Source: Sacculina carcini
Lineage: Eukaryota > Arthropoda > Thecostraca > Sacculinidae
Direction of reading: 5' to 3'
DNA: 64,000 nt
NCBI GenBank assembly: GCA_916048095.2
Contig: OU696589.1
Span: 3,321,948-3,385,947 of the forward strand
Part shown: one piece after another, positions 28,207 through 45,262 of the stretch
Numbering within the stretch: position 1 is the stretch's first letter
Layout of the letters: every line of letters starts with the position of its first letter
The notes under the pieces: generated by a model
Database searches by the model: none
Seen by the model: only the letters and a program-made list of their open reading frames with translations
Told to the model about the DNA's origin: nothing
Program-made: the position numbers and the translations under genes

Positions 28207-28275
28207 TGGTGTCAGAAGTTTCGGACCTGCGTCCCATTATTATCGTTATTGTGTTGGTGGTATCGTGGAGTAACT

Positions 28276-31200
28276 ATGTCGTGCAGACAGCCGGATGAGC
28301 TAGATCTCAGCTCTCCAACGTTGGCGAATACGTGGCGCACCTGGAAAAGAGATTGGACGTATTATGCGTCCGCTAGGGAGTTATCCAGCAAGCCAATGGC
28401 GATGCAAATTGGCACTTTTTTTAATTGTGCCGGAAAAGCTGCACAAGAAGTGGCTTCTCATTTTTTGTGGTCGGAGGAGGGCGGCACTCTCGACGAATTG
28501 ATTGCCGAGTTCGAGAATTACTGTGCGCCACACAAGAACGTGATTATGGAGAGGTTCAAATTCTACAACCGTGCTCAACAGCCAGGGGAAAGCGTCACGG
28601 CGTTCGTCGCTGCGTTGCGAAATCTCAGTGCTAGCTGTGAGTTCACTAACACTGATGAAATGATTCGCGACAGAATATGCATCGGTGTATACGACAAATC
28701 AACGCAACAAACGCTGTTGAAAATCTCATCCCTGACGTTGGCCTCAGCTATTTCAACGGCGCTGACGGAGGAGGCGTCGCGTCAAGATCAACTGGTCATG
28801 ACCAACGTGGATCCTCCAGTTTCAGGCGTGTGTGCTGCTACTTCGTCATCATCATCATCATCTGCAGCCGGTGGTCGTCAAACTGGTGGAAGTGAGTGCC
28901 GTTTTTGTATGCGCAGGCACGAAATGAGACGGTCCGAGTGTCCTGCGTGGAACCGCCTCTGCCGAGTCTGCGGACGCCGTCACCATTTTGCAGGCAGTAT
29001 CGAGTGTCGCGCTGCACGTGCTGGCGAGAGCGGTGAGCGTCGCAGTGCACCCACCAGGGAAAGAGCGGTCGCTCAGAGCGATAGCCCTGCAACACGAGAC
29101 AGTCGAGCGATGAGTCATAGACGTGACGTGCAGACACTGCAGGACAATAAGCTGCAAGATTCGCTGTCAGTGGGTATGGAGAGTAGCAGTGTCGGTAGTA
29201 AAGTATTCAAAACATTGATCACGCAGAACGGTAAACTGATCAAATTTCTCGTTGACTCAGGGTCTCAACTAAATGTAGTTTCTGTTGAGTCCTATAAACA
29301 ATTTTCTGGTGATGTTGAAATGGTCAGTTTAAAACCGTCAAAAATGCTGCTTCGAATGTATAACGGTGCTCTCATATCCACTGTGGGTAAAATATCGGTC
29401 CCAGTTAAGAAACATGTAAATGATAATCTGCAAAATATGTTGTGTTATGTAGTGGACGCTGATGTTTTTCCGGTCCTCAGTCTGCAGACTTCGGTTAGCA
29501 TGGGTATTATATCAGTGCTCGATTGTGACCCACTTGATTACGTGCCCGGGCCCAGCATGGTACACAACTCGCAGAATAATTCACCGTCTGCAACCACACT
29601 GTCAGGTTTGACACAATCGCCTATGACAGCCGGAAATAAGCAAGACGTAATGCATAAATTCGCTGATGTTTTCGATGACAATACAGTTGGGCTGATTTGC
29701 CAGGACTTTGAAATTCAAGTAGACCCCACGGTTGTTCCTGTGGTTGAACCTCCTAGGCGTGTGCGTATACATGTGAGAGAAAAACTTCGAGATAAGCTGA
29801 ATAACCTCGAAAATCAAGGAATAATTGCCAAAGTGGTCGAGCCAACAGAATGGGTATCCAACATAGTTATTGTGCCCAAGGCTTCAGGCGATATCAGGTT
29901 GTGTCTTGATCCCAGATCTTTGAATAAGGCGATTCGACGGGCTCATTACCCCACACCAACGGTAGATGAGGTTGCGTATCGACTTTCAAAGGCGAAAGTT
30001 TTCTCTCTCATTGATGTACATTCAGCGTTTTTACATGTAGGATTGTCAGAACAATCTTCCAGGTTATGCTGTTTTCACACACCGTTTGGTAGGTACAGGT
30101 GGTGTCGTCTGCCTTATGGAACATCTTGCGCACCCGAAATTTGGCAACGATTAATGCACGAAATGATCACTGACTTGGCAGGAGTAGAAGTTATAGCCGA
30201 TGACTTTCTAGTCTCGGGAAAAGGGGACACATATGAGGAAGCAGTAGCAGACCACGATAAAAACCTAGTTGAGTTTCTCCAGACAGCCCGTTCGCGAAAT
30301 TTGAAACTGAATACAGCGAAATTCAGATACCAACTGAAGGAAGTAGAGTGGATGGGACATGTGTTTAATGATAGTGGCATGAGTCCGAGTCCAAGAAAGG
30401 TTGAAGCCGTTGCTAAATATCCGCAGCCTACCTGTTTGGCAGAGTTGAAGCGATTTTTGGGAATGGTGGCATACCTCTCGAGATATATTCCTGACGTGTC
30501 GTCGGTAGTTGCTCCTCTTAGGCAGCTTACGAAAGCGAAATATGAGTGGTATTGGAGTACGGAGTGTGAGAAGTCATTTGACAAGATAAAACATATTTTG
30601 ATCAGAGCCCCGGTGCTCACGTATTACCGACCCGAGCTTCCCGCTACTGTACAATGTGATGCTTCGAGCACAGGACTAGGGGGAGTACTACTACAGGAGG
30701 GACGCCCCGTAATTTATTGCAGCAGATCACTGACGTCAGCTGAGCGTGCGTATTCACAAATAGAAAAAGAATTGCTGGCAGTCAGTTTTACAATGAACCG
30801 ACTGGATCAATTTGTCTATGGCAGATCTGTTTTGGTGCAAACAGATCACAAACCGTTAGTTGCAATTCAACAAAAAGCGTTGTGTGACGCCCCACTCCGG
30901 CTCCAAAGAATGTTGTTATCGCTGCAACGCTATAATTTCACATTGGTGTATTGTCCAGGTGCAAGTGTTCCAGTGGCTGATGCTTTGAGTCGCAGCACTA
31001 ACGCGAGTAATACTGTTCAGAGCGTGGCAAGTGTTGAAGTTGAGAATATAAACTTGAGTTCAGGGCTAGCTGTTTCTCCAGAACGTAAACAGGTCTATCA
31101 GGAGGCAACGAACAATGATCATTCGCTCCGACAAGTAATTGAGTACACCAAATCGGGGTGGCCGTCTCGTAGATCCATGTTACCTGCTGATGTCGCTCAG

Positions 31201-32346
31201 TACTGGCCATTTCGTTTAGAAATGACGTCCCAGGACGGATTAGCGTTTAAGTATGGTAAGCTAGTGGTTCCCAAGTCGCTACGGGCAGGTGTCCTCTCCA
31301 GGCTTCATCGCGCTCATATTGGCTTGGCGTCAATCATGAGGTATGCCAGAGAGAACGTGTTTTGGCCGGGCATGGCGTCTGAGGTTAGAAACATGATATT
31401 GAACTGCACTGTTTGCATGTCCTATAGACAGGAGCAACCATCTGAGCCCATGATGCCACACACTATAGCGGAACGTCCGTGGCAAAAATTAGCGGCAGAT
31501 CTCTTTGAATTGAGCGGAAAGTGTTATCTTGTAACCGTTGATTATTTTAGTAATTATGTAGAAGTCGATCTCCTTCATCGTGTGACAACTGCAGCAGTTG
31601 TCTCGTGTTTAACTACTCAGTTTGCTCGTCACGGGGTGCCAGAAGTATTGGTCACGGACAATGGTCCACAGTTTTCGTCCCATGAGTTCAAACAATTCAT
31701 GCATCAAACAGACGTAGTACATATCACGTCAAGTCCGAGGTACCCCCAATCAAACGGGAAGGCTGAAAATGCTGTAAAAACGGTAAAACAACTCTTCCGT
31801 AAAGCCAGCGCTTCTCATGAAAATCCACTTTGGGCATTGATGATCTGGCGTAACACACCCAGTGAGGGTACGAAATACTCGCCAAGTCAGATACTGTTCG
31901 GGCGTAGATGCAGAACGTTACTACCGACACATCGCGATTCTCTTTCACCTGCAACGGCAGTCGGTGTGCGAGAGAAGTTAGAAGAGCAGAAAAGGCGCCA
32001 ACAGCAGGCGTACGACACTAGAGTGGGTCATCATCCGCTGGTACCACTGTCTATCGGCTCAGCAATACGAATGAAATTACCGGGTTCAACAACATGGTCT
32101 TCCGGTATTTGCCTACGTTATTTAGGACACCGTTCATATGAAGTCCTTGTGAATGGAGTAAGATACAGGCGGAATCGCAGGCAGCTGATGCTCGACAGTC
32201 AAACTCAGCCAGATTTGTACAGTGGCGTCAGCTCTCCTGCTCAAGATATCAGTGAGCCGAAGCTGAGTCCGGTTCTTCAACGACCTGTACGAAGATCGTC
32301 GCGTCAGACCAGGCGTCCAGCGTACCTTGATGATTATGTTTGTTAA
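28276..32346 (+). CDS. Gag-pol polyprotein of the Steamer-like element
   Basis: One frame of about 1356 aa from ATG 28276. The parts in order are: gag with a retrotransposon capsid-type region; zinc-binding CRFCMRRHEM and CRVCGRRHHFAGSIEC; aspartic protease FLVDSGSQLNVVS; reverse transcriptase with VIADDFLVSG at the catalytic site; RNase H beginning VQCDASSTGLGGVL; and integrase with an HHCC zinc domain (HRAHIG, CTVCMSYRQ) and the D-D-E core (VDYFSNYVEV, VTDNGPQFSS, QSNGKAENAV). All expected parts are seen. Gag and pol share one frame, as the Steamer lineage is known to do. Confidence 0.92.
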   Translation: MSCRQPDELDLSSPTLANTWRTWKRDWTYYASARELSSKPMAMQIGTFFNCAGKAAQEVASHFLWSEEGGTLDELIAEFENYCAPHKNVIMERFKFYNRAQQPGESVTAFVAALRNLSASCEFTNTDEMIRDRICIGVYDKSTQQTLLKISSLTLASAISTALTEEASRQDQLVMTNVDPPVSGVCAATSSSSSSSAAGGRQTGGSECRFCMRRHEMRRSECPAWNRLCRVCGRRHHFAGSIECRAARAGESGERRSAPTRERAVAQSDSPATRDSRAMSHRRDVQTLQDNKLQDSLSVGMESSSVGSKVFKTLITQNGKLIKFLVDSGSQLNVVSVESYKQFSGDVEMVSLKPSKMLLRMYNGALISTVGKISVPVKKHVNDNLQNMLCYVVDADVFPVLSLQTSVSMGIISVLDCDPLDYVPGPSMVHNSQNNSPSATTLSGLTQSPMTAGNKQDVMHKFADVFDDNTVGLICQDFEIQVDPTVVPVVEPPRRVRIHVREKLRDKLNNLENQGIIAKVVEPTEWVSNIVIVPKASGDIRLCLDPRSLNKAIRRAHYPTPTVDEVAYRLSKAKVFSLIDVHSAFLHVGLSEQSSRLCCFHTPFGRYRWCRLPYGTSCAPEIWQRLMHEMITDLAGVEVIADDFLVSGKGDTYEEAVADHDKNLVEFLQTARSRNLKLNTAKFRYQLKEVEWMGHVFNDSGMSPSPRKVEAVAKYPQPTCLAELKRFLGMVAYLSRYIPDVSSVVAPLRQLTKAKYEWYWSTECEKSFDKIKHILIRAPVLTYYRPELPATVQCDASSTGLGGVLLQEGRPVIYCSRSLTSAERAYSQIEKELLAVSFTMNRLDQFVYGRSVLVQTDHKPLVAIQQKALCDAPLRLQRMLLSLQRYNFTLVYCPGASVPVADALSRSTNASNTVQSVASVEVENINLSSGLAVSPERKQVYQEATNNDHSLRQVIEYTKSGWPSRRSMLPADVAQYWPFRLEMTSQDGLAFKYGKLVVPKSLRAGVLSRLHRAHIGLASIMRYARENVFWPGMASEVRNMILNCTVCMSYRQEQPSEPMMPHTIAERPWQKLAADLFELSGKCYLVTVDYFSNYVEVDLLHRVTTAAVVSCLTTQFARHGVPEVLVTDNGPQFSSHEFKQFMHQTDVVHITSSPRYPQSNGKAENAVKTVKQLFRKASASHENPLWALMIWRNTPSEGTKYSPSQILFGRRCRTLLPTHRDSLSPATAVGVREKLEEQKRRQQQAYDTRVGHHPLVPLSIGSAIRMKLPGSTTWSSGICLRYLGHRSYEVLVNGVRYRRNRRQLMLDSQTQPDLYSGVSSPAQDISEPKLSPVLQRPVRRSSRQTRRPAYLDDYVC

Positions 32347-33030: not shown

Positions 33031-33124
33031 AAGTAAGTAGAAGGCTTCACCACTTTGTTACATTTGTTTACATTATCCCCCTTGCCCCTCCCCCCTCTGA
33101 CGTCATCCCCCTATGACGTCATAC

Positions 33125-33500
33125 CTAACCTAACTTTTTTTTAGTTTTTTTTTTTAAATTAACCTAACTTTTTTTTTTAACCTAACTTTTTTATTATATT
33201 TTTTTAATCTAACCTAACTTATTTTCTTATTCTATACCTAACCCGACCCAACCTAACCTAACCTAACCTAACTTATTTTCTTTATTTCTTTATTCTATAC
33301 CTAACCCAACCCGACCTAACCTAACCTTTATTTTCTTTATTTCTTTATTCTATACCCAACCTAACCTAACTTTTATTTTTAATATTTATTCTATACCTAA
33401 CCTAACCCGAACCGACCTAACTTTTATTTTTAATATGTATTCTATACCTAACCTAACCTAACCTAACCCGACCCAACCGAACCCAAGTTTTATTTTTAAT
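33125..33500. repeat. CCTAA-type arrays, left subterminal region
   Basis: Clusters of CCTAACCTAAC separated by poly-T/TATTTATTCTATAC blocks, present in mirror form at 44790-45175. Read on the other strand the unit is TTAGG, the telomere unit of most arthropods. Confidence 0.9.
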
Positions 33501-34116
33501 ATTTATTTTAAATATGCATACCTGACAGGTTTCGAACTGGGGTCCTCGCAGAGTTCAGTCACAGCGGGAATATGCTGGTGGAGCTAGACATATTTGTTTG
33601 CGCCGCATTTGTTTGCGTCACGATATATCGGGATCGCCAAGTCGATGTTTGGCAGAGACGTGAGTAGTGTATTATAGCCGAAATGGGTTTATACAAAATG
33701 GTTTGACTAAATCGGTAATTAAAACGCTATTCGACTGTGTCGGAATTGACACAAAAATGACTTGCAACGAAATGATCTTTGTGTATTTTCACTTGATACA
33801 CAACTATGGCAAATATACAAGCGGAAATCTTATTGAGGACACGATTCAGCGAACACATCGTGAACACAAATGTTTGTTGATTTTTCGATCAATTTTGATG
33901 ATGTAAATCATATCGTGTGTCTCATACACAATTTCCAGTTCAGCCGACCATGTATCAGGAACAGAAACACCTTCTTGTAGAGCTTCCGAAAGACACACGT
34001 CAAACGATGTGTACTCTTTGTACGATTCGCTGATGATGTGTCTGCTATCTGACGAACTACCACCAACATAGCGATAGTTATAATTAGGCACCAGTGTAGC
34101 AGGAGAAACACAGCTC

Positions 34117-34893
34117 ATGGTGTTTATACAAAGAAAGATAAACATTGACTGTAAGAGCGAAATTATCAGACACGGATTGATGGCGATAATTATGACGCAT
34201 GCTCCGATAAGTAGTGCAATTAGTCTCAGCCGTGATACGCAGTTGAGCTCGAGACGCTTGCGGGTGAGGTTGTGTAGCTTTTATCGGGGAATTGTCAACA
34301 TGAGTCAGGTGAATACAAACGTTGATACGACCAAGCGGATCCTGCCACTGGAACATCATGCGGTCAAGTTTGTTGCCGATACACCGTTCATCTGTGGACA
34401 CCCACTGGAGCAGAGGATTTGGATTATTTTCGGACGACTGGAAAAACATAGTCAGACGGATTTCGAACACTTACAAAAACAGCTTACTAATATTATGCAA
34501 CTGGAGCGATATTTTGACCCCTTTTGGAAAATTCATCGCGGCGCGGTGAGAATGTTCACCAACGAGGAGCGTGCACTACAGATTGTGATCGATACAGTTA
34601 TGAGTCGACCGATGAGAGATGCTGTTCCTGGAGCCGTTGCAGCCGCTGTATCATTTAAAGTGTTGTCGGTGGCGTTGGTGCGAAGTGACGAGACTCAGAT
34701 TTACCGGCCGCCCGATGCGACCTGCAACACTATGGAGTGGATGAAGACCATTGTTATGAGCTACTATGAGTCGCGAAAACAGTACTTGACCGAAACCAAG
34801 TTTTATCGTGAATTTAAAGCCCACAAAATGAAGATGGTTGTGCACAAAGAGGTTCAAGGTGAACCACAAAGTAAACGGAACAAAATTTGTTGA
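34117..34893 (+). CDS. Unassigned 258-aa protein, left arm, convergent
   Basis: The mirror copy of 43382-44158, differing by about one residue. The opposite-strand 99-codon ORF lies at 33846-34145. Confidence 0.5.
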   Translation: MVFIQRKINIDCKSEIIRHGLMAIIMTHAPISSAISLSRDTQLSSRRLRVRLCSFYRGIVNMSQVNTNVDTTKRILPLEHHAVKFVADTPFICGHPLEQRIWIIFGRLEKHSQTDFEHLQKQLTNIMQLERYFDPFWKIHRGAVRMFTNEERALQIVIDTVMSRPMRDAVPGAVAAAVSFKVLSVALVRSDETQIYRPPDATCNTMEWMKTIVMSYYESRKQYLTETKFYREFKAHKMKMVVHKEVQGEPQSKRNKIC

Positions 34894-34993
34894 ATTATTC
34901 TATATGTACGGTTTACCAATACATTTCGTGATGTGTTTCAAGAGTTTGATTATTGCGCGCGAACAAAAACACACTTTGTTATCGTTCAATTTA

Positions 34994-35518
34994 TTAAAAT
35001 GGTAGCATGCGCGGTGTACACAGATTCATTGCATACAGCAATTTAGCGAAATGTTGACAACGTAAAATACAACAGTTTGTAGGAATGACATGAGTATATG
35101 GACACGGTGTGATGTTGGGTAGTACATGTATGTCGCGTGCGTTCATTGATAAATAGTCGGGTAGGATGTCTTCGAGATTTTCAATATTTAGTTCAAGTAG
35201 GTGGGAAAGTCGACGAGCCTTGTCGATACCTTTGGCGTAGATGTGGTCGGGTGCCAGACTTTGAATGAGGTAACTTGCGTCGCGCAGCTTTTGTTCATAC
35301 TTGTGCGTGTTGTAAGGATTGTAATTATATTCCAAGCCGTGTAGGGTCGCCGTCAAAAATAGAAAATGCTTGCGTCGCTCAGCGTTGAGTTTCAATTGTG
35401 GTGGCGGTAGGATGGTGTGCCACAAGTATCCCGAGCACAGGTCATGCACAAACAATTCCTTGACAACAAAAGGCGAATCCTTGTGCTGGAAACCGTCACA
35501 GTCTACAAGTATGACCAT
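34994..35518 (-). CDS. Unassigned 174-aa protein, left arm
   Basis: The mirror copy of 42757-43281. Confidence 0.55.
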   Translation of the reverse strand: MVILVDCDGFQHKDSPFVVKELFVHDLCSGYLWHTILPPPQLKLNAERRKHFLFLTATLHGLEYNYNPYNTHKYEQKLRDASYLIQSLAPDHIYAKGIDKARRLSHLLELNIENLEDILPDYLSMNARDIHVLPNITPCPYTHVIPTNCCILRCQHFAKLLYAMNLCTPRMLPF

Positions 35519-35949
35519 ACCAGCGCTAAAAGCTGATTGTTGATAGCAGGGTCGGTGGATAGGCACGAAACGAAATCTTGCAGATCCCAGCCGGCGTCAA
35601 ACAATGCAACAAATAGGGCACAGTACTGTCCACACACGTCCGAGTCCGGCGCCTGAATTACGCGCGTGTTCAGCACACACTGATTATAGTTTACATGTTT
35701 GTTTATAAAATTCACAAACGAGGGATGCCAGACGGGTGAGTTGCTAGACGAGTCGAAATATTGGAGATTTTCACCGTCCCAGGCAAACACGACGCAATGC
35801 AGACCCGATTGCCAGCGCGGTTGTATATTCACAATAATTGATGTGCGCACACCGCGAGCAAATGTGAAATGTTTTAGCCGGTCGCACGCCCAAACCCCCC
35901 GAAATGTGGCGACTGTGTCGAGCAACCGTTCCAATTCAAGCGCGTTCAT
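35503..35949 (-). CDS. Adenain-like maturation protease, left arm
   Basis: The mirror copy of 42326-42772 with the same His, Asp, Gln and Cys positions. Confidence 0.8.
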   Translation of the reverse strand: MNALELERLLDTVATFRGVWACDRLKHFTFARGVRTSIIVNIQPRWQSGLHCVVFAWDGENLQYFDSSSNSPVWHPSFVNFINKHVNYNQCVLNTRVIQAPDSDVCGQYCALFVALFDAGWDLQDFVSCLSTDPAINNQLLALVWSYL

Positions 35950-37235
35950 AGTTGAAAATCTGTGCTGACACGTCCCGCACTGTCAATTGTGATTTCGTTT
36001 TCAAACGTGGCGTAGATTAGAACGTTAATTGTCTCGGGTAGAGCGTAAGTGAATGCCAGCTCACACCTCACATTACCTTGTTCACGCGGATGCAAATGAT
36101 CACCACCACACTGATCCGGAGTCAGATCTACAATAAACAAAGTATAACCAGCCGCATAATCATCATGTGTGATATCCAGGCCCTGGTTTTCCGTATCGAG
36201 ACCGGTACCGTCAAACAGTGACAGATACGATCTCATATATAGACCTTTTGTGAAATCGGGGCGATAGGGGTGCGTGGGATACGGCTCGCCATTTATATAG
36301 AACTGAAGACTGTTTAGATGGTAGTGGTGAAAATTCCATGGGTTTTTCTGTAGCGATCCGTGGTACGCTTCAGTGCTTACGAGTCCCAGCAGAATTTGTC
36401 GCGGCACTTGTGAGGTGAAAATATTATTCAAAGTTCCACTCATGTTTCCTTTGGGGAGAGTATATGTTTTCAGTAGAACTCGTGGAATAGGATATCGGGC
36501 TGGTGTTTTCGCCAACTGTTTGTGAAAACTCACCCACATCGAGTCGGAAAGCGTTATTTTCTCGACATGCACACACAGGTCGACAATTTCAATCTTGTAT
36601 TCTCCCTCGGCACCGAGTAGAGCAAACTGATCAGAGTTTCGAATCAGTTTGAGTTTCTCCGAAACTGTACCGGGCAATATACGACATTGATGGTTGGTAT
36701 CCAGCTGTAGCGGTATACAAAAATCAAAAACTTTGCTTCCAGCCACCCATTGTTTGCGTTCGTTAAAACCAATGTTCAAAAGTTTAACATCATGCAAGTG
36801 CCCAGCAGTATCTTTACGCCAAAAACCCGACCGTAAATGACCGTTTTTAGCGTTCTGGTTATACGACAACAACGTCTCAAGATAGGCACGATAGCCATAG
36901 AGTGCGCTGGAATCCGATACAATAGTATCACCAATCTGGTAGTCAATCTATTTGAAGAGAGCATGTGGTAGCAGGTTGACAACGCTCACGTTGGCGTCGT
37001 CGACGAGTTCGCTACCGTCACGATTGACAACACGTGCTTTGCCATAGAGCTTGGTTTTTGATGGACGCGTAGACGATTTACCGAGCGCAGGTAAGTGAAA
37101 TTCAAACGGACCTTCGCTGCTTAGTCGACTCACCGGGTAATATACATGTGTTTTGGACGATTTCACACTGGTTTCAAGCACTGGTCGAGAGAATACCTCG
37201 GTTATTTCACAAGCGCATTCGTCTACGTTTTGCAT
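35946..37235 (-). pseudogene. Major capsid protein region, left arm
   Basis: The mirror copy of 41040-42329, near-identical to the right-arm gene but broken in this arm. It is the same family and in the same position between the core and protease genes. Confidence 0.8.
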
Positions 37236-37596
37236 TGTCAAAGATGTCGCGTTCCTGTTGACGTCGTTGACCAACACCTTTTCGTTTTGTCGGTCGTCGA
37301 GAGACTGATTGACTCGTCGCACGATTTAAACTATTTATACTGGTTCGAAGAAGACGTTTAGCTTCGTGTCGAGAGCGATTGCGGACGGCTTGACTTGCAT
37401 TTTCTCCGTCGAGAACGTCCTGCAGTGTGCGTACGCCCGTCTTCAAGGCGGATTTAGCCAGATGTTTTGTCAGAGGTTGTTTGGCGACAGTTTTGACGGC
37501 GGGTATCACCACTCTCATTAAGCCTCTGAAAATACTCCCAAGTCCGCTGCCACGCTGTATCATTGGACCTCGAAATATCAACTGAGAATTTGTCAT
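37207..37596 (-). CDS. pX/pVI-like virion core protein, left arm
   Basis: The mirror copy of 40679-41068, with the same 129-residue product as far as I can read. Confidence 0.65.
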   Translation of the reverse strand: MTNSQLIFRGPMIQRGSGLGSIFRGLMRVVIPAVKTVAKQPLTKHLAKSALKTGVRTLQDVLDGENASQAVRNRSRHEAKRLLRTSINSLNRATSQSVSRRPTKRKGVGQRRQQERDIFDNAKRRRMRL

Positions 37597-38633
37597 TGTT
37601 GTTTTTGCATAAAATGTAGTGTCAGGTACGAACGGCCGTGGTGAAATGGAACCAATTGCCCATTGCTCTGTCTTATATGCACTCCCAGATCGGTGATGAA
37701 CTCATCTTCCAGCGGTACATACTGAATTTGATTGAATGTTCGATGAATTTGAGGTGATTTTATATCGTTCGTGTACGGACTGACAACACGTAATACCGGA
37801 GCCATAGTATCACCAACCATCTGCGCCTGTAATTTGTCCATGTAGATATACAAAAATGTTGGGTTGAGTCGACTTACATCCATCACATTCGACGAGCGTG
37901 TATGTTTTTCAATAACAACGCGACTATCTGACACTACGTGGCTGGTGAACCCAAGAGCCCTAGCTATTTTGGTGTTTACTGATACGTCAGTGTCCCCACA
38001 CCATACATGTCCACCAGTATCCAGAGTGAGCACTTGTCTACCGCAAACATAGTGGAAATTTTCCAGCAGCGCCTGATTGGACATGTAGTGCCCTGTGATG
38101 AGTTGGAACGTCTCACCATCAATCTCGAATTCATTCATACGATTTTCTACATTCAGCCAGCGAGCGGAAAATGTGATTTCGGCCAGTCCAACAGTCCACG
38201 AACGATCTAGATTCAGTGGTGCCGGTAGCTGAACACGAAATTGAGATGCAGTGTTTCCAGGATAAAGATGCAGACTGCTCGAACTGTCCAACGACACATA
38301 GAATCATTGGCTGGACATTTTTCGAAAATGTAGCGTCAAAATTAGCCCCGGACCGGCAGTGAAAGGGAATTTCTTACGGGATTCGTCAGGGATTCTCACC
38401 TGAACAGTAGATATATTGGAATGTGACAAAGGTTTATAATACATTTGATTAAATACCAATTCTTGAATCGGATAGGTGTCACACACATGTATTTGACGGA
38501 GTTGTGGTTGCAGTGAACGATTGACAATTTGCGCAGCTACAAGATCTGTTTCGATAGTCAACAATTGTGTCGAGGCTGGGTCCAACGGAAACGGTGTGGA
38601 CATGATCATAGTGATATCGCTGGCGTCAAACAC
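37593..38633 (-). CDS. Minor capsid/penton-like region, left arm
   Basis: The mirror copy of 39642-40682, nearly identical in sequence. In this arm the region is broken. Confidence 0.65.
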
Positions 38634-38657
38634 ACCATAATGTGCATAGCGATATCG

Positions 38658-39080
38658 TCATGTCGAGTGTGCTATCGATCCGTTGACATGCAATAGTCGG
38701 GAAAATTGTTCGCTTATGTGCAACACAATGTTTGTAGCCTCCAGCCATAAATGATTGTCTCGTGATACTTTTACTTTCACATGATCGCTATTCACATACG
38801 TTTGTAGCGCCGAAATGAACGTATCGGTAGTATACTTGCCAGCATACACTGTTGAGGATTTATTGAGATCGCCCGCATTCGGACTGTACTCTGAAAATAT
38901 TATATCTTTGTTGAGGGTCAGCCAGTTGGTGGGCAGAAGAACAGAGTGTAAGGCCACTTGCCATTGTTGTGTATCTAGACATAAAGGCTGAGCGAGATTC
39001 ACCGAGAATTTGGCAGTGGTGTTACGTGTGAATGTCTGACTACTGGCGACGCTCGGCAGCGTTACATAAAACTCGTTCAT
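38658..39080 (-). CDS. Minor capsid/penton-like segment spanning spacer and left arm
   Basis: 140 codons starting MNEFYVTLPSVAS. The arrangement FYVTLPS...NTTAKFSVNLAQPLCL...WQVALHSVLLPTNW is the N-terminal pattern of a family found beside Polinton-type capsid genes and thought to be the minor capsid (penton-like) protein. It is present once, because the palindrome centre cuts through it; the other arm has only its end. Function is inferred from family and neighbours. Confidence 0.6.
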   Translation of the reverse strand: MNEFYVTLPSVASSQTFTRNTTAKFSVNLAQPLCLDTQQWQVALHSVLLPTNWLTLNKDIIFSEYSPNAGDLNKSSTVYAGKYTTDTFISALQTYVNSDHVKVKVSRDNHLWLEATNIVLHISEQFSRLLHVNGSIAHST

Positions 39081-39504
39081 ATCGACCAGTACACTAAGTA
39101 TATCTATACGTCTGTCAACCTTATATACAAACAGGAAACAAACAACAAAATATATTTAGAAAAAATAACCTAACCTAGCCTAAAACTTAGAAATACACGA
39201 AGTGCGCACGAAAAATATTTTTGCTAAAGTTTACACACACCACAAAACCCTGTCGGTTAATTATACCATTTCTGAATTAGCTATGGGGACGACGTCGATG
39301 ACTAATTTGCTGATAACTCAATCGCCATCACGACATTGTTGATTACAAAATCAGGGTAGTCAATAGCATTAATGAAATTTTCACATTGATACATTGAAAC
39401 GAAGCTTACCGGGGTGTGTTGCAGATTTTCAATATTATTGTCGCCTCTGACAAGTTGTGATATAAGTATTCACGAACAGTCTAATTAAATCAAGTATCAA
39501 GTAT
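38771..39504. other. Spacer (unique centre) of the palindrome
   Basis: 734 bp present once. Its left half codes the N-terminal part of a capsid-like ORF that runs on into the left arm. The right half is AT-rich non-coding DNA with a few CCTAA words. A short AAGTATCAAGTATAAGTAT repetition marks the right-arm border. Confidence 0.8.
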
Positions 39505-39641
39505 AAGTATCACGAGACAATCATTTATGGCTGGAGGCTACAAACATTGTGTTGCACATAAGCGAACAATTTTCCCGACTATTGCATGTCAACGGATCGA
39601 TAGCACACTCGACATGACGATATCGCTATGCACATTATGGT

Positions 39642-40682
39642 GTGTTTGACGCCAGCGATATCACTATGATCATGTCCACACCGTTTCCGTTGGACCCAGC
39701 CTCGACACAATTGTTGACTATCGAAACAGATCTTGTAGCTGCGCAAATTGTCAATCGTTCACTGCAACCACAACTCCGTCAAATACATGTGTGTGACACC
39801 TATCCGATTCAAGAATTGGTATTTAATCAAATGTATTATAAACCTTTGTCACATTCCAATATATCTACTGTTCAGGTGAGAATCCCTGACGAATCCCGTA
39901 AGAAATTCCCTTTCACTGCCGGTCCGGGGCTAATTTTGACGCTACATTTTCGAAAAATGTCCAGCCAATGCTTCTATGTGTCGTTGGACAGTTCGAGCAG
40001 TCTGCATCTTTATCCTGGAAACACTGCATCTCAATTTCGTGTTCAGCTACCGGCACCACTGAATCTAGATCGTTCGTGGACTGTTGGACTGGCCGAAATC
40101 ACATTTTCCGCTCGCTGGCTGAATGTAGAAAATCGTATGAATGAATTCGAGATTGATGGTGAGACGTTCCAACTCATCACAGGGCACTACATGTCCAATC
40201 AGGCGCTGCTGGAAAATTTCCACTATGTTTGCGGTAGACAAGTGCTCACTCTGGATACTGGTGGACATGTATGGTGTGGGGACACTGACGTATCAGTAAA
40301 CACCAAAATAGCTAGGGCTCTTGGGTTCACCAGCCACGTAGTGTCAGATAGTCGCGTTGTTATTGAAAAACATACACGCTCGTCGAATGTGATGGATGTA
40401 AGTCGACTCAACCCAACATTTTTGTATATCTACATGGACAAATTACAGGCGCAGATGGTTGGTGATACTATGGCTCCGGTATTACGTGTTGTCAGTCCGT
40501 ACACGAACGATATAAAATCACCTCAAATTCATCGAACATTCAATCAAATTCAGTATGTACCGCTGGAAGATGAGTTCATCACCGATCTGGGAGTGCATAT
40601 AAGACAGAGCAATGGGCAATTGGTTCCATTTCACCACGGCCGTTCGTACCTGACACTACATTTTATGCAAAAACAACAATGA
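39642..40682 (+). CDS. Minor capsid/penton-like protein, right arm
   Basis: An open frame of up to 346 codons; its true start is uncertain because the first codon of the frame is not ATG. The second half, from FYVSLDSSSSLHLYPGNTASQF through WTVGLAEITFSARWLNVENR to HHGRSYLTLHF, follows the Polinton-neighbour minor capsid pattern. The first about 110 codons resemble the C-terminal half of the same family. Virion structural role inferred. Confidence 0.65.
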   Translation: MFDASDITMIMSTPFPLDPASTQLLTIETDLVAAQIVNRSLQPQLRQIHVCDTYPIQELVFNQMYYKPLSHSNISTVQVRIPDESRKKFPFTAGPGLILTLHFRKMSSQCFYVSLDSSSSLHLYPGNTASQFRVQLPAPLNLDRSWTVGLAEITFSARWLNVENRMNEFEIDGETFQLITGHYMSNQALLENFHYVCGRQVLTLDTGGHVWCGDTDVSVNTKIARALGFTSHVVSDSRVVIEKHTRSSNVMDVSRLNPTFLYIYMDKLQAQMVGDTMAPVLRVVSPYTNDIKSPQIHRTFNQIQYVPLEDEFITDLGVHIRQSNGQLVPFHHGRSYLTLHFMQKQQ

Positions 40683-41068
40683 CAAATTCTCAGTTGATAT
40701 TTCGAGGTCCAATGATACAGCGTGGCAGCGGACTTGGGAGTATTTTCAGAGGCTTAATGAGAGTGGTGATACCCGCCGTCAAAACTGTCGCCAAACAACC
40801 TCTGACAAAACATCTGGCTAAATCCGCCTTGAAGACGGGCGTACGCACACTGCAGGACGTTCTCGACGGAGAAAATGCAAGTCAAGCCGTCCGCAATCGC
40901 TCTCGACACGAAGCTAAACGTCTTCTTCGAACCAGTATAAATAGTTTAAATCGTGCGACGAGTCAATCAGTCTCTCGACGACCGACAAAACGAAAAGGTG
41001 TTGGTCAACGACGTCAACAGGAACGCGACATCTTTGACAATGCAAAACGTAGACGAATGCGCTTGTGA
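40679..41068 (+). CDS. pX/pVI-like virion core protein, right arm
   Basis: 129 aa, starting within the last codons of the preceding gene (4-base overlap ATGA). It has the glycine-rich then hydrophobic start GSGLGSIFRGLMRVVIPAVK, a region TGVRTLQDVLDGENASQAV, and a very basic tail rich in R/K. This matches the small basic, membrane-active or DNA-binding core proteins of adintoviruses and adenoviruses. Encoded directly before the major capsid gene, which it overlaps. Confidence 0.65.
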   Translation: MTNSQLIFRGPMIQRGSGLGSIFRGLMRVVIPAVKTVAKQPLTKHLAKSALKTGVRTLQDVLDGENASQAVRNRSRHEAKRLLRTSINSLNRATSQSVSRRPTKRKGVGQRRQQERDIFDNAKRRRMRL

Positions 41069-42329
41069 AATAACCGAGGTATTCTCTCGACCAGTGCTTG
41101 AAACCAGTGTGAAATCGTCCAAAACACATGTATATTACCCGGTGAGTCGACTAAGCAGCGAAGGTCCGTTTGAATTTCACTTACCTGCGCTCGGTAAATC
41201 GTCTACGCGTCCATCAAAAACCAAGCTCTATGGCAAAGCACGTGTTGTCAATCGTGACGGTAGCGAACTCGTCGACGACGCCAACGTGAGCGTTGTCAAC
41301 CTGCTACCACATGCTCTCTTCAAACAGATTGACTACCAGATTGGTGATACTATTGTATCGGATTCCAGCGCACTCTATGGCTATCGTGCCTATCTTGAGA
41401 CGTTGTTGTCGTATAACCAGAACGCTAAAAACGGTCATTTACGGTCGGGTTTTTGGCGTAAAGATACTGCTGGGCACTTGCATGATGTTAAACTTTTGAA
41501 CATTGGTTTTAACGAACGCAAACAATGGGTGGCTGGAAGCAAAGTTTTTGATTTTTGTATACCGCTACAGCTGGATACCAACCATCAATGTCGTATATTG
41601 CCCGGTACAGTTTCGGAGAAACTCAAACTGATTCGAAACTCTGATCAGTTTGCTCTACTCGGTGCCGAGGGAGAATACAAGATTGAAATTGTCGACCTGT
41701 GTGTGCATGTCGAGAAAATAACGCTTTCCGACTCGATGTGGGTGAGTTTTCACAAACAGTTGGCGAAAACACCAGCCCGATATCCTATTCCACGAGTTCT
41801 ACTGAAAACATATACTCTCCCCAAAGGAAACATGAGTGGAACTTTGAATAATATTTTCACCTCACAAGTGCCGCGACAAATTCTGCTGGGACTCGTAAGC
41901 ACTGAAGCGTACCACGGATCGCTACAGAAAAACCCATGGAATTTTCACCACTACCATCTAAACAGTCTTCAGTTCTATATAAATGGCGAGCCGTATCCCA
42001 CGCACCCCTATCGCCCCGATTTCACAAAAGGTCTATATATGAGATCGTATCTGTCACTGTTTGACGGTACCGGTCTCGATACGGAAAACCAGGGCCTGGA
42101 TATCACACATGATGATTATGCGGCTGGTTTTACTTTGTTTATTGTAGATCTGACTCCGGATCAGTGTGGTGGTGATCATTTGCATCCGCGTGAACAAGGT
42201 AATGTGAGGTGTGAGCTGGCATTCACTTACGCTCTACCCGAGACAATTAACGTTCTAATCTACGCCACGTTTGAAAACGAAATCACAATTGACAGTGCGG
42301 GACGTGTCAGCACAGATTTTCAACTATGA
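41040..42329 (+). CDS. Major capsid protein (Polinton type), right arm
   Basis: 429 aa from ATG 41040, which overlaps the core gene. It belongs to the family annotated in animals as F54H12.2-like, recognised as the double-jelly-roll capsid protein of Polintons. Telling stretches are LPALGKSSTRPSKTKLYGKA, NQNAKNGHLRSGFWRKD, LQFYINGEPYPTHPYRPDF, and a C-terminal YTLFIVDL-like segment followed by CELAFTYALPETINVLIYA. Length fits the family. The protein should form the trimeric capsomers of the particle. The adenain-like protease gene begins 4 bases before its stop. Confidence 0.8.
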   Translation: MQNVDECACEITEVFSRPVLETSVKSSKTHVYYPVSRLSSEGPFEFHLPALGKSSTRPSKTKLYGKARVVNRDGSELVDDANVSVVNLLPHALFKQIDYQIGDTIVSDSSALYGYRAYLETLLSYNQNAKNGHLRSGFWRKDTAGHLHDVKLLNIGFNERKQWVAGSKVFDFCIPLQLDTNHQCRILPGTVSEKLKLIRNSDQFALLGAEGEYKIEIVDLCVHVEKITLSDSMWVSFHKQLAKTPARYPIPRVLLKTYTLPKGNMSGTLNNIFTSQVPRQILLGLVSTEAYHGSLQKNPWNFHHYHLNSLQFYINGEPYPTHPYRPDFTKGLYMRSYLSLFDGTGLDTENQGLDITHDDYAAGFTLFIVDLTPDQCGGDHLHPREQGNVRCELAFTYALPETINVLIYATFENEITIDSAGRVSTDFQL

Positions 42330-42772
42330 ACGCGCTTGAATTGGAACGGTTGCTCGACACAGTCGCCACATTTCGGGGGGTTTGGGCGTGCGACCGGCTA
42401 AAACATTTCACATTTGCTCGCGGTGTGCGCACATCAATTATTGTGAATATACAACCGCGCTGGCAATCGGGTCTGCATTGCGTCGTGTTTGCCTGGGACG
42501 GTGAAAATCTCCAATATTTCGACTCGTCTAGCAACTCACCCGTCTGGCATCCCTCGTTTGTGAATTTTATAAACAAACATGTAAACTATAATCAGTGTGT
42601 GCTGAACACGCGCGTCATTCAGGCGCCGGACTCGGACGTGTGTGGACAGTACTGTGCCCTATTTGTTGCATTGTTTGACGCCGGCTGGGATCTGCAAGAT
42701 TTCGTTTCGTGCCTATCCACCGACCCTGCTATCAACAATCAGCTTTTAGCGCTGGTATGGTCATACTTGTAG
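42326..42772 (+). CDS. Adenain-like maturation protease, right arm
   Basis: 148 aa. The cysteine-protease layout of adenovirus-type proteases is visible: His in GLHCVVFAWD, an acidic residue in LQYFDSSSNS, and Gln plus Cys in DVCGQYCALFVALFDAG. Such enzymes cleave capsid precursors during virion maturation. The start overlaps the major capsid stop (ATGA) and its end overlaps the next gene by 16 bases, giving the tightly packed order of a viral late cluster. Confidence 0.8.
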   Translation: MNALELERLLDTVATFRGVWACDRLKHFTFARGVRTSIIVNIQPRWQSGLHCVVFAWDGENLQYFDSSSNSPVWHPSFVNFINKHVNYNQCVLNTRVIQAPDSDVCGQYCALFVALFDAGWDLQDFVSCLSTDPAINNQLLALVWSYL

Positions 42773-43281
42773 ACTGTGACGGTTTCCAGCACAAGGATTC
42801 GCCTTTTGTTGTCAAGGAATTGTTTGTGCATGACCTGTGCTCGGGATACTTGTGGCACACCATCCTACCGCCACCACAATTGAAACTCAACGCTGAGCGA
42901 CGCAAGCATTTTCTATTTTTGACGGCGACCCTACACGGCTTGGAATATAATTACAATCCTTACAACACGCACAAGTATGAACAAAAGCTGCGCGACGCAA
43001 GTTACCTCATTCAAAGTCTGGCACCCGACCACATCTACGCCAAAGGTATCGACAAGGCTCGTCGACTTTCCCACCTACTTGAACTAAATATTGAAAATCT
43101 CGAAGACATCCTACCCGACTATTTATCAATGAACGCACGCGACATACATGTACTACCCAACATCACACCGTGTCCATATACTCATGTCATTCCTACAAAC
43201 TGTTGTATTTTACGTTGTCAACATTTCGCTAAATTGCTGTATGCAATGAATCTGTGTACACCGCGCATGCTACCATTTTAA
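42757..43281 (+). CDS. Unassigned 174-aa protein, right arm
   Basis: Starts at ATG 42757 inside the protease gene. The opening MVILVDCDGFQHKDSPFVVK, then KELFVHD and LFLTATLHGLEYNYNPYNTH, resembles a protein found in other animal Polinton-like elements and often annotated only as uncharacterised. The early D-x-D-G-F and later H-G-L arrangement could suit a nuclease fold, but I would not assign one. Confidence 0.55.
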   Translation: MVILVDCDGFQHKDSPFVVKELFVHDLCSGYLWHTILPPPQLKLNAERRKHFLFLTATLHGLEYNYNPYNTHKYEQKLRDASYLIQSLAPDHIYAKGIDKARRLSHLLELNIENLEDILPDYLSMNARDIHVLPNITPCPYTHVIPTNCCILRCQHFAKLLYAMNLCTPRMLPF

Positions 43282-43381
43282 TAAATTGAACGATAACAAA
43301 GTGTGTTTTTGTTCGCGCGCAATAATCAAACTCTTGAAACACATCACGAAATGTATTGGTAAACCGTACATATAGAATAAT

Positions 43382-44158
43382 TCAACAAATTTTGTTCCGT
43401 TTACTTTGTGGTTCACCTTGAACCTCTTTGTGCACAACCATCTTCATTTTGTGGGCTTTAAATTCACGATAAATCTTGGTTTCGGTCAAGTACTGTTTTC
43501 GCGACTCATAGTAGCTCATAACAATGGTCTTCATCCACTCCATAGTGTTGCAGGTCGCATCGGGCGGCCGGTAAATCTGAGTCTCGTCACTTCGCACCAA
43601 CGCCACCGACAACACTTTAAATGATACAGCGGCTGCAACGGCTCCAGGAACAGCATCTCTCATCGGTCGACTCATAACTGTATCGATCACAATCTGTAGT
43701 GCACGCTCCTCGTTGGTGAACATTCTCACCGCGCCGCGATGAATTTTCCAAAAGGGGTCAAAATATCGCTCCAGTTGCATAATATTAGTAAGCTGTTTTT
43801 GTAAGTGTTCGAAATCCGTCTGACTATGTTTTTCCAGTCGTCCGAAAATAATCCAAATCCTCTGCTCCAGTGGGTGTCCACAGATGAACGGTGTATCGGC
43901 AACAAACTTGACCGCATGATGTTCCAGTGGCAGGATCCGCTTGGTCGTATCAACGTTTGTATTCACCTGACTCATGTTGACAATTCCCCGATAAAAGCTA
44001 CACAACCTCACCCGCAAGCGTCTCGAGCTCAACTGCGTATCACGGCTGAGACTAATTGCACTACTTATCGGAGCATGCGTCATAATTATCGCCATCAATC
44101 CGTGTCTGATAATTTCGCTCTTACAGTCAATGTTTATCTTTCTTTGTATAAACACCAT
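43382..44158 (-). CDS. Unassigned 258-aa protein, right arm, convergent
   Basis: It runs towards the capsid cluster from the outer side. The longest frame starts at 44158. An internal start at MSQVNTNVDTTKR is plausible, because the first part overlaps a small opposite-strand ORF (44130-44429, 99 codons). The C-terminus is basic (QSKRNKIC). No family recognised. By position it could be an early or regulatory gene; that is a guess. Confidence 0.5.
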   Translation of the reverse strand: MVFIQRKINIDCKSEIIRHGLMAIIMTHAPISSAISLSRDTQLSSRRLRVRLCSFYRGIVNMSQVNTNVDTTKRILPLEHHAVKFVADTPFICGHPLEQRIWIIFGRLEKHSQTDFEHLQKQLTNIMQLERYFDPFWKIHRGAVRMFTNEERALQIVIDTVMSRPMRDAVPGAVAAAVSFKVLSVALVRSDETQIYRPPDATCNTMEWMKTIVMSYYESRKQYLTETKIYREFKAHKMKMVVHKEVQGEPQSKRNKIC

Positions 44159-44789
44159 GAGCTGTGTTTCTCCTGCTACACTGGTGCCTAATTATAACTA
44201 TCGCTATGTTGGTGGTAGTTCGTCAGATAGCAGACACATCATCAGCGAATCGTACAAAGAGTACACATCGTTTGACGTGTGTCTTTCGGAAGCTCTACAA
44301 GAAGGTGTTTCTGTTCCTGATACATGGTCGGCTGAACTGGAAATTGTGTATGAGACACACGATATGATTTACATCATCAAAATTGATCGAAAAATCAACA
44401 AACATTTGTGTTCACGATGTGTTCGCTGAATCGTGTCCTCAATAAGATTTCCGCTTGTATATTTGCCATAGTTGTGTATCAAGTGAAAATACACAAAGAT
44501 CATTTCGTTGCAAGTCATTTTTGTGTCAATTCCGACACAGTCGAATAGCGTTTTAATTACCGATTTAGTCAAACCATTTTGTATAAACCCATTTCGGCTA
44601 TAATACACTACTCACGTCTCTGCCAAACATCGACTTGGCGATCCCGATATATCGTGACGCAAACAAATGCGGCGCAAACAAATATGTCTAGCTCCACCAG
44701 CATATTCCCGCTGTGACTGAACTCTGCGAGGACCCCAGTTCGAAACCTGTCAGGTATGCATATTTAAAATAAATATTAAAAATAAAACT

Positions 44790-45175
44790 TGGGTTCGGTT
44801 GGGTCGGGTTAGGTTAGGTTAGGTTAGGTATAGAATAAATATTAAAAATAAAAGTTAGGTCGGTTCGGGTTAGGTTAGGTATAGAATAAATATTAAAAAT
44901 AAAAGTTAGGTTAGGTTGGGTATAGAATAAAGAAATAAAGAAAATAAAGAAAATAAAGGTTAGGTTAGGTCGGGTTGGGTTAGGTATAGAATAAAGAAAT
45001 AAAGAAAATAAGTTAGGTTAGGTTAGGTTAGGTTGGGTAGGGTTAGGTATAGAATAAGAAAATAAGTTAGGCTAGGTTAAAAAACTAAAAAAAAAAGTTA
45101 GGTTAAAAAAAAAGAAAAAAAAGTTAGGTTAGGTTAAAAAAAAAAAAACTAAAAAAAAGTTAGGTTAGGTATGAC
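44790..45175. repeat. TTAGG-type arrays, right subterminal region
   Basis: The mirror of 33125-33500; the unit counts differ slightly between the arms. Confidence 0.9.
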
Positions 45176-45262
45176 GTCATAGGGGGATGACGTCAGAGGG
45201 GGGAGGGGCAAGGGGGATAATGTAAACAAATGTAACAAAGTGGTGAAGCCTTCTACTAAGTA

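Follow-up and report, generated by a model that had tools for sequence, protein, structure and literature searches.

A palindromic half-Polinton in the genome of Sacculina carcini and its probable origin by snap-back replication

Introduction

The Mavericks of vertebrates are described in PMC8097293 as elements with a mean length of 16.9 kb, terminal repeats of 46-1447 bp and 6-bp target-site duplications. The present work concerns an inverted dimer of 12 kb at positions 33036-45257 of a 64,000-nucleotide stretch of the Sacculina carcini genome (hereafter, the window; C24:3321948-3385947 in a 264-Mb genome of 43 contigs). The dimer is the right, capsid-bearing half of a Polinton/Maverick that is abundant in the same genome, and it is accompanied there by other palindromic copies of either element end. 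With a probability of roughly 85%, we regard it as a snap-back (fold-back) replication product of such an element, integrated as a finished palindrome.

Inverted duplications of this kind are known from other systems. In adenoviruses, snap-back defective genomes consist of an inverted duplication of one genome end, with a replication origin at both ends. In yeast, origin-dependent inverted-repeat amplification (ODIRA) involves strand switching at short inverted repeats on chromosomal replication forks. To our knowledge, the case for protein-primed, extrachromosomal replication of Polintons has been built on their gene content and not on direct observation, and no report of palindromic Polintons was found among the open-access papers listed, judged by title or abstract start.

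The palindromes described here resemble the adenovirus snap-back genomes in presenting one end outward on both sides and in the short complementarity at their turns (7 nt in the palindrome on contig C16, 5 nt on C9, 3 nt on C20 and about 3 nt in the window). Unlike those genomes, they are chromosomal, flanked by target duplications, represent both element ends and have no known particle. The likeness to ODIRA lies in inverted copies from strand switching at short inverted repeats; unlike products of chromosomal forks, the palindromes start exactly at transposon ends.

As in the vertebrate Mavericks (PMC8097293), the window dimer has terminal inverted repeats, AGT-type ends and an adenovirus-type protease, and its fuller relatives possess a retroviral-type integrase, a Pox_A32-type ATPase and a viral-type polymerase B. 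Canonical copies are also similar in size (median about 16.5 kb vs. the mean of 16.9 kb given there). In contrast, the inverted repeat of the window dimer spans 5.7 kb instead of the 46-1447 bp reported there, and the duplication is 5 bp instead of 6 bp. The window dimer also differs from vertebrate Mavericks in carrying no integrase, ATPase or polymerase.

Results

Architecture of the dimer

Self-comparison of the window and alignment of the arms delimit two core arms, 33326-38776 and 39499-44949, of 5451 nt each and 100% complementary (rounded; 7 substitutions per 5451 nt), with 722 nt in between. Outer arm pieces extend the palindrome to 33036 and 45257; the outer 300 bp contain several indels and substitutions and are more divergent between the arms than the remainder. 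The palindrome with two near-identical arms proposed in the original prediction, which was made from the letters of the window, is therefore real in this assembly, and its spacer of 734 bp has to be corrected to 722 bp. The termini read AGTAGAAGG...CCTTCTACT (AGTAG...CTACT), and AAGTA stands at 33031-33035 and again at 45258-45262, in line with the predicted AG...CT ends and outside duplication, while the sequences beyond are unrelated to each other. The window contains 0 N letters. The structural features are as follows.

33031..33035, unstranded: target-site duplication, left copy AAGTA, 5 bp (arm/flank alignment)
33036..38776, minus: left arm, the right half of the Polinton, reversed; original order together with the spacer (same order in copies L028 and L030)
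33036..33063, plus: terminal motif AGTAGAAGGCTTCACCACTTTGTTACAT (genome-wide motif count)
38777..39498, unstranded: unpaired spacer (loop), 722 bp; in other copies it adjoins the left arm without a break (self-comparison, relatives)
39490..39510, unstranded: strand-switch junction; relatives go on ..AATTAAATCAAGGTGCCG, whereas the window passes to AAGTAT repeats and the copied-back arm
39499..45257, plus: right arm, the copied-back strand (self-comparison)
45258..45262, unstranded: target-site duplication, right copy AAGTA (flank alignment)

In both L028 and L030, arm and spacer are collinear and ordered as in the left arm of the window.

The parent family

Fuller copies have the order integrase (INT)-ATPase-polymerase B (PolB)-[middle]-capsid genes-protease-ORF258, where INT, ATPase and PolB lie on one strand and the capsid genes on the other, followed by ORF258. 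Genome-wide, the integrase gave at least 151 matches (of the 150 listed, 131 were assigned by score to this family, and 19 are partial or belong to a second one), the ATPase at least 150 places in two families, polymerase B at least 148 matches, often two per gene, ORF258 at least 147 places and the capsid protein at least 92 scored places. Of the 148 polymerase rows, 89 entered the analysis, the others being mainly second pieces of the same genes. All these counts are lower bounds, and a copy without a listed marker may still carry it. The integrase of the relatives matches Pfam rve (E 1.2e-9) and their ATPase Pox_A32 (E 6.1e-8).

The end motif class occurs 229 times in forward and 231 times in reverse orientation, with 0 occurrences in the reversed control. 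From 300 ends (298 from the total of 460, to which the two of the window were added), 85 end-bounded units were built: 40 with markers of both halves (canonical units, median 16.5 kb), 9 with the left half only, 2 with the right half only, 11 with an inverted layout and 23 with no markers. The last group, e.g., C1:9089392-9103472, C1:9528446-9543571, C2:6057601-6073073 and C4:8643108-8657618, shares the Polinton end motif without listed matches to integrase, ATPase, polymerase, capsid protein or ORF258; 16 of the 23 span 12.8-19.7 kb. These units perhaps represent another element family using the same ends.

Three copies that also carry integrase and ATPase (L018, L021 and L036) are 98.8-99.1% identical to the window over 4.6-5.0 kb, and other copies differ from it by approximately 1-6%. 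The search for relatives with polymerase B, integrase and shared ends, suggested along with the original prediction, was successful within the same genome. The expectation that ordinary repeats measure a few hundred bases to about 1 kb agrees with the 10.5-kb relative C6:6577427-6587949, whose terminal repeat is 482 bp in the part read and about 1.1 kb if it reaches the end. A variable middle and differing homology end points among copies were considered and dropped, these being largely N runs of exactly 2500 or 5000 bases (measured where both run edges lie inside the locus).

Other palindromic copies

In four further palindromes the sequence was read across the centre: C26 and C20, which double the capsid (right) end, and C9 and C16, which double the INT-ATPase-PolB (left) end. 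The reading covered the central 1.8-5.5 kb, and the outer parts were taken from marker positions and, for C20, C9 and C16, from end motifs as well. The part read is self-complementary over 2.7 kb in C26, 5.5 kb in C20, 4.6 kb in C9 and 1.7 kb in C16, and the whole units measure 15.0 kb (C20), 17.7 kb (C9) and 13.2 kb (C16). Substitutions between the compared parts of the arms amount to 0.07-0.23% (C26 3/1325, C9 3/2290, C16 1/850, C20 2/2742 plus 24 gap columns, and the window 7/5451). Two right-end palindromes have partly read centres: C35:1147271, with 861 bp of arm inverted, and C4:11574512, with a 5.65-kb arm (27/5649 columns differ). A large-loop reading of both was dropped as based on runs of N. 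The interior of C4:11574512 contains a direct repeat for which no explanation was found.

Up to 12 more candidates, of varying strength, are suggested by marker order.

Right-end candidates (markers, some with ends and duplications): C2:3783727, C35:3462216, C29:3807008
Left-end candidates (markers, some with ends and duplications): C3:10316226, C3:7389427, C4:8196071, C4:3902280, C37:3447983
Further left-end candidates (markers, some with ends and duplications): C37:4123784 and its near copy C37:4150609, C11:4495839
Left-end candidate of the second family (markers): C19:2139260

The latter locus, C19:2139260-2151700, belongs to a second Polinton family, with an integrase of about 68% identity, and shows an inverted INT-ATPase / PolB-ATPase layout.

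Among the 11 inverted-layout units, 9 were accepted as palindromes, with lengths of 10.8-22.2 kb (8 of the 9 within 10.8-18.8 kb); C9:7338114 and C11:4494936 were set aside, the latter (C11:4494936-4520563) as a wrong pairing of ends. The stretch between C11:4494936 and about 4500400 has an element end at its left and two outward-pointing integrase copies separated by only about 2.3 kb, and may be a very short left-end palindrome (estimated length 5.4 kb). Close pairs of the same gene mostly have the element ends outward (outward/inward/tandem: ORF258 11/3/4, INT 8/2/5, ATPase 8/2/3, capsid 5/0/3). Three outward ORF258 pairs were not counted: C29:3792732/3802260, with unequal arms (98% vs. 92%), C9:7339449/7355443, which is unclear, and C35:3942604/3961994, which spans a canonical copy.

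Target-site duplications

A perfect 5-bp duplication flanks all 7 of the 7 palindromes with both flanks read: AAGTA in the window, GAGTT on C2, CACAC at C3:10316226, TATAC at C4:8196071, TTGTG at C4:3902280, ACCGT on C20 and ACTTA at C4:11574512. Two of them are weak taken singly, because CACAC is part of a run of CA and ACTTA belongs to a 22-bp repeat array. The canonical copies show 5-bp duplications as well (4/4: AACCA, CTGTC, ACATC and ACATA). Since each of the seven is surrounded as a whole by its own duplication, the palindromes appear to have integrated as finished units. Entry as one palindromic unit, proposed earlier from AAGTA, is thereby supported by six further cases, and other palindromic copies with their own duplications, the second target of the suggested search, do exist in this genome.

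Turning points

The turning points were located by eye from the letters, against uninterrupted relatives. The turn of C16 is formed by AAAGCCA/TGGCTTT (7 nt) with a 17-nt loop (relatives L027 and L046), that of C9 by AATTA/TAATT (5 nt) with a 12-nt loop (relative L028) and that of C20 by GAG/CTC (3 nt) with a 30-nt loop (relative L034, which differs from the parent). The window departs from the original after ATCAAG, continues with extra AAGTAT-like repeats and then enters the copied-back arm. The centre of C26 has an 8-nt loop, with no uninterrupted relative at hand for comparison. The five centres read (window, C26, C20, C9 and C16) all differ, which implies that each of these palindromes arose independently.

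Genes in the arms and the neighbourhood

Open reading frames (ORFs) in the dimer are listed below.

34117..34893, plus: ORF258, left arm (ORF list, protein search)
34994..35566, minus: 190-aa ORF, left arm (ORF list)
35503..35949, minus: adenovirus-type cysteine protease, left arm (ORF list; Pfam, right-arm copy scanned)
35946..37322, minus: putative major capsid protein gene, left arm, broken by the stop codon 36948-36950 (ORF list, copy comparison)
37207..37596, minus: 129-aa basic ORF, left arm, core-protein-like by position only (ORF list)
37593..38633, minus: minor-capsid/penton-like frame, left arm, named from position and interrupted by a stop at 38304-38306
38658..39080, minus: 140-aa ORF starting in the spacer and entering the left arm; shortened in the right arm
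39642..40682, plus: minor-capsid/penton-like frame, 346 aa, right arm, name presumptive (ORF list)
40679..41068, plus: 129-aa basic ORF, right arm (ORF list)
41040..42329, plus: putative major capsid protein, right arm, 429 aa from the likely ATG (ORF list, homologue search)
42326..42772, plus: adenovirus-type protease, right arm (ORF list, Pfam)
42709..43281, plus: 190-aa ORF, right arm (ORF list)
43382..44158, minus: ORF258, right arm (ORF list)

The protease, one per arm, matches Pfam Peptidase_C5 above the cut-off (E 3.5e-6, right-arm copy scanned), so this part of the predicted gene set stands. The 429-aa protein, also one per arm, belongs to a family occurring in animals and metagenomes and is taken as the major capsid protein from its position and weak profile matches: DJR-like_dom was matched weakly by 2 of 36 family members (best E 0.008), the window protein itself has no Pfam match, and neither a PDB match nor a confirmed IMG/VR relative was found for it. 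The penton-like and core names proposed earlier are positional; the penton-like protein has no Pfam or PHROG match. The 7 dimer proteins gave 0 matches in PHROGs, and none of 284 candidates qualified as a homologue of ORF258 at E 1e-3. Polymerase B, integrase and ATPase are absent from the Pfam matches of the 7 proteins, and none of the genome-wide matches listed for PolB (PF03175), integrase and ATPase falls inside the dimer, in accord with the earlier failure to recognize a polymerase B or integrase there.

Two substitutions, at 36950 and 38304, create the stops in the left arm. All other copies have the right-arm base at both sites (19/19 and 23/23 loci, counts in which the right arm of the window and a few overlapping loci are included). 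Taking the base found in most other copies as ancestral, 5 of the 7 substitutions fall in the left arm and 2 in the right, so mutations have accumulated on both sides since the dimer formed.

CCTAA-like units, similar to the telomere repeat of arthropods, abound in the terminal 500 bp, including the outer 300 bp (window 33110-33510 and its mirror counterpart). The palindrome is preceded, at a distance of about 0.7 kb, by the end of a Ty3-type retrotransposon (window 28249-32346) whose open frame encodes 1365 aa. Just past the window, at C24:3396601-3408684 and about 30 kb from the palindrome, lie the ATPase, capsid and ORF258 genes of a canonical-looking Polinton.

Discussion

Proposed mechanism

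In the proposed scheme, the linear element would replicate extrachromosomally from its terminal repeats, and protein-primed, strand-displacing synthesis would leave extended single strands that are still being elongated at the 3' end. Where such a strand halts inside the element, this end may anneal to a few complementary bases, either on itself or on a sister strand, and be extended back to the starting terminus. The product would carry the same end and origin twice and be replicable from both; the integrase would recognise its two like ends as it does an ordinary pair and insert the molecule with a 5-bp duplication. We infer protein priming, a free DNA form and packaging. Left-end palindromes retain integrase and polymerase. 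Right-end palindromes contain neither and would therefore have to be mobilised in trans, probably by an integrase from fuller relatives.

Snap-back copying would explain why palindromes of either end occur, with outward ends, different centres and near-identical arms. The snap-back origin put forward in the original prediction is supported, and it is strengthened by the left-end palindromes, which were not predicted, and by short inverted repeats at three turns.

Several observations speak against this explanation. The junction in the window matches over about 3 nt only, with a loop of 722 bp. The three turning stretches are not unusually stable, 17%, 42% and 61% of equal windows being at least as stable; strong hairpins as turning hot spots found no support in this comparison, so that the sites of turning seem opportunistic. 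The centres of C35:1147271 and C4:11574512 were read only in part, and the arms of the latter differ at the 27 columns noted above. Integrase or ATPase scores are unequal between the arms in C4:8196071, the three candidates on C37, C4:3902280 and C3:7389427, which may accordingly be older or mosaic. Only 8 of the 11 outward ORF258 pairs were accepted as palindromes, the palindromes are known from the assembly alone, and the arms of the further ones were read in part.

Alternative explanations

A switch of template between two Polinton molecules, in place of one strand folding on itself, is a rather unlikely variant of the snap-back reading, and the odds of the two are not exclusive. It would suit the long loop of the window and the unequal scores of some marker-level left-end arms (in C4:8196071-8214902, INT 97% vs. 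99%; also on C37), whereas short loops favour single-strand folding, and arms 99.8-99.9% alike in substitutions (window, C26, C9 and C16) stand against the difference of about 1-6% between the window and other copies. The latter argument is qualified by C20, with its 2 substitutions and 24 gap columns. It is improbable that the palindrome is the inherited normal design of a stable non-autonomous family: C37:4123784 and C37:4150609 do share a layout, but they lie only 26.8 kb apart on one contig, as local duplication would give, and the five readable centres are all different.

Rearrangement in place, i.e., two opposite insertions or fold-back repair of a chromosome break followed by trimming, seems very improbable. 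Clustered insertion does occur (inward close pairs: ORF258 3, INT 2, ATPase 2); however, such events would not account for a single 5-bp duplication enclosing the unit, as seen in 7/7 palindromes, and the compared arms are closer to each other than copies are. The least credible source is an artefact of assembly or library, from chimeric fold-back reads or collapsed haplotypes. Long palindromes are a known origin of sequencing artefacts, and the structure is known from the assembly, but in an artefact the flanks should be mirrored as well, and the symmetry should not stop at element ends with a target duplication; moreover, both window arms carry substitutions relative to other copies (5 left, 2 right).

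Biological significance

Snap-back replication could also regularly split the Polinton into two complementary half-genomes, an incipient two-part virus, which we consider a doubtful yet conceivable extension. If true, left-end palindromes would hold integrase and ATPase doubled (and polymerase if the arms are long enough) and could in principle replicate and integrate on their own, and right-end palindromes would hold the capsid genes doubled. The proximity of 8 of the 9 palindromes to the canonical median of 16.5 kb could mean passage through size-limited particles.

Palindromes of both ends, with their own duplications wherever both flanks were read and different turns wherever the centre was read, are predicted by extrachromosomal protein-primed replication and not by cut-and-paste transposition, and outward-ended palindromes are a signature to be sought in any long-read genome. 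Overall, the findings suggest that the element replicates outside the chromosome, as adenoviruses are thought to do, that its integrase acts on molecules not encoding it, and that this may be a route by which a one-piece virus splits into complementary parts.

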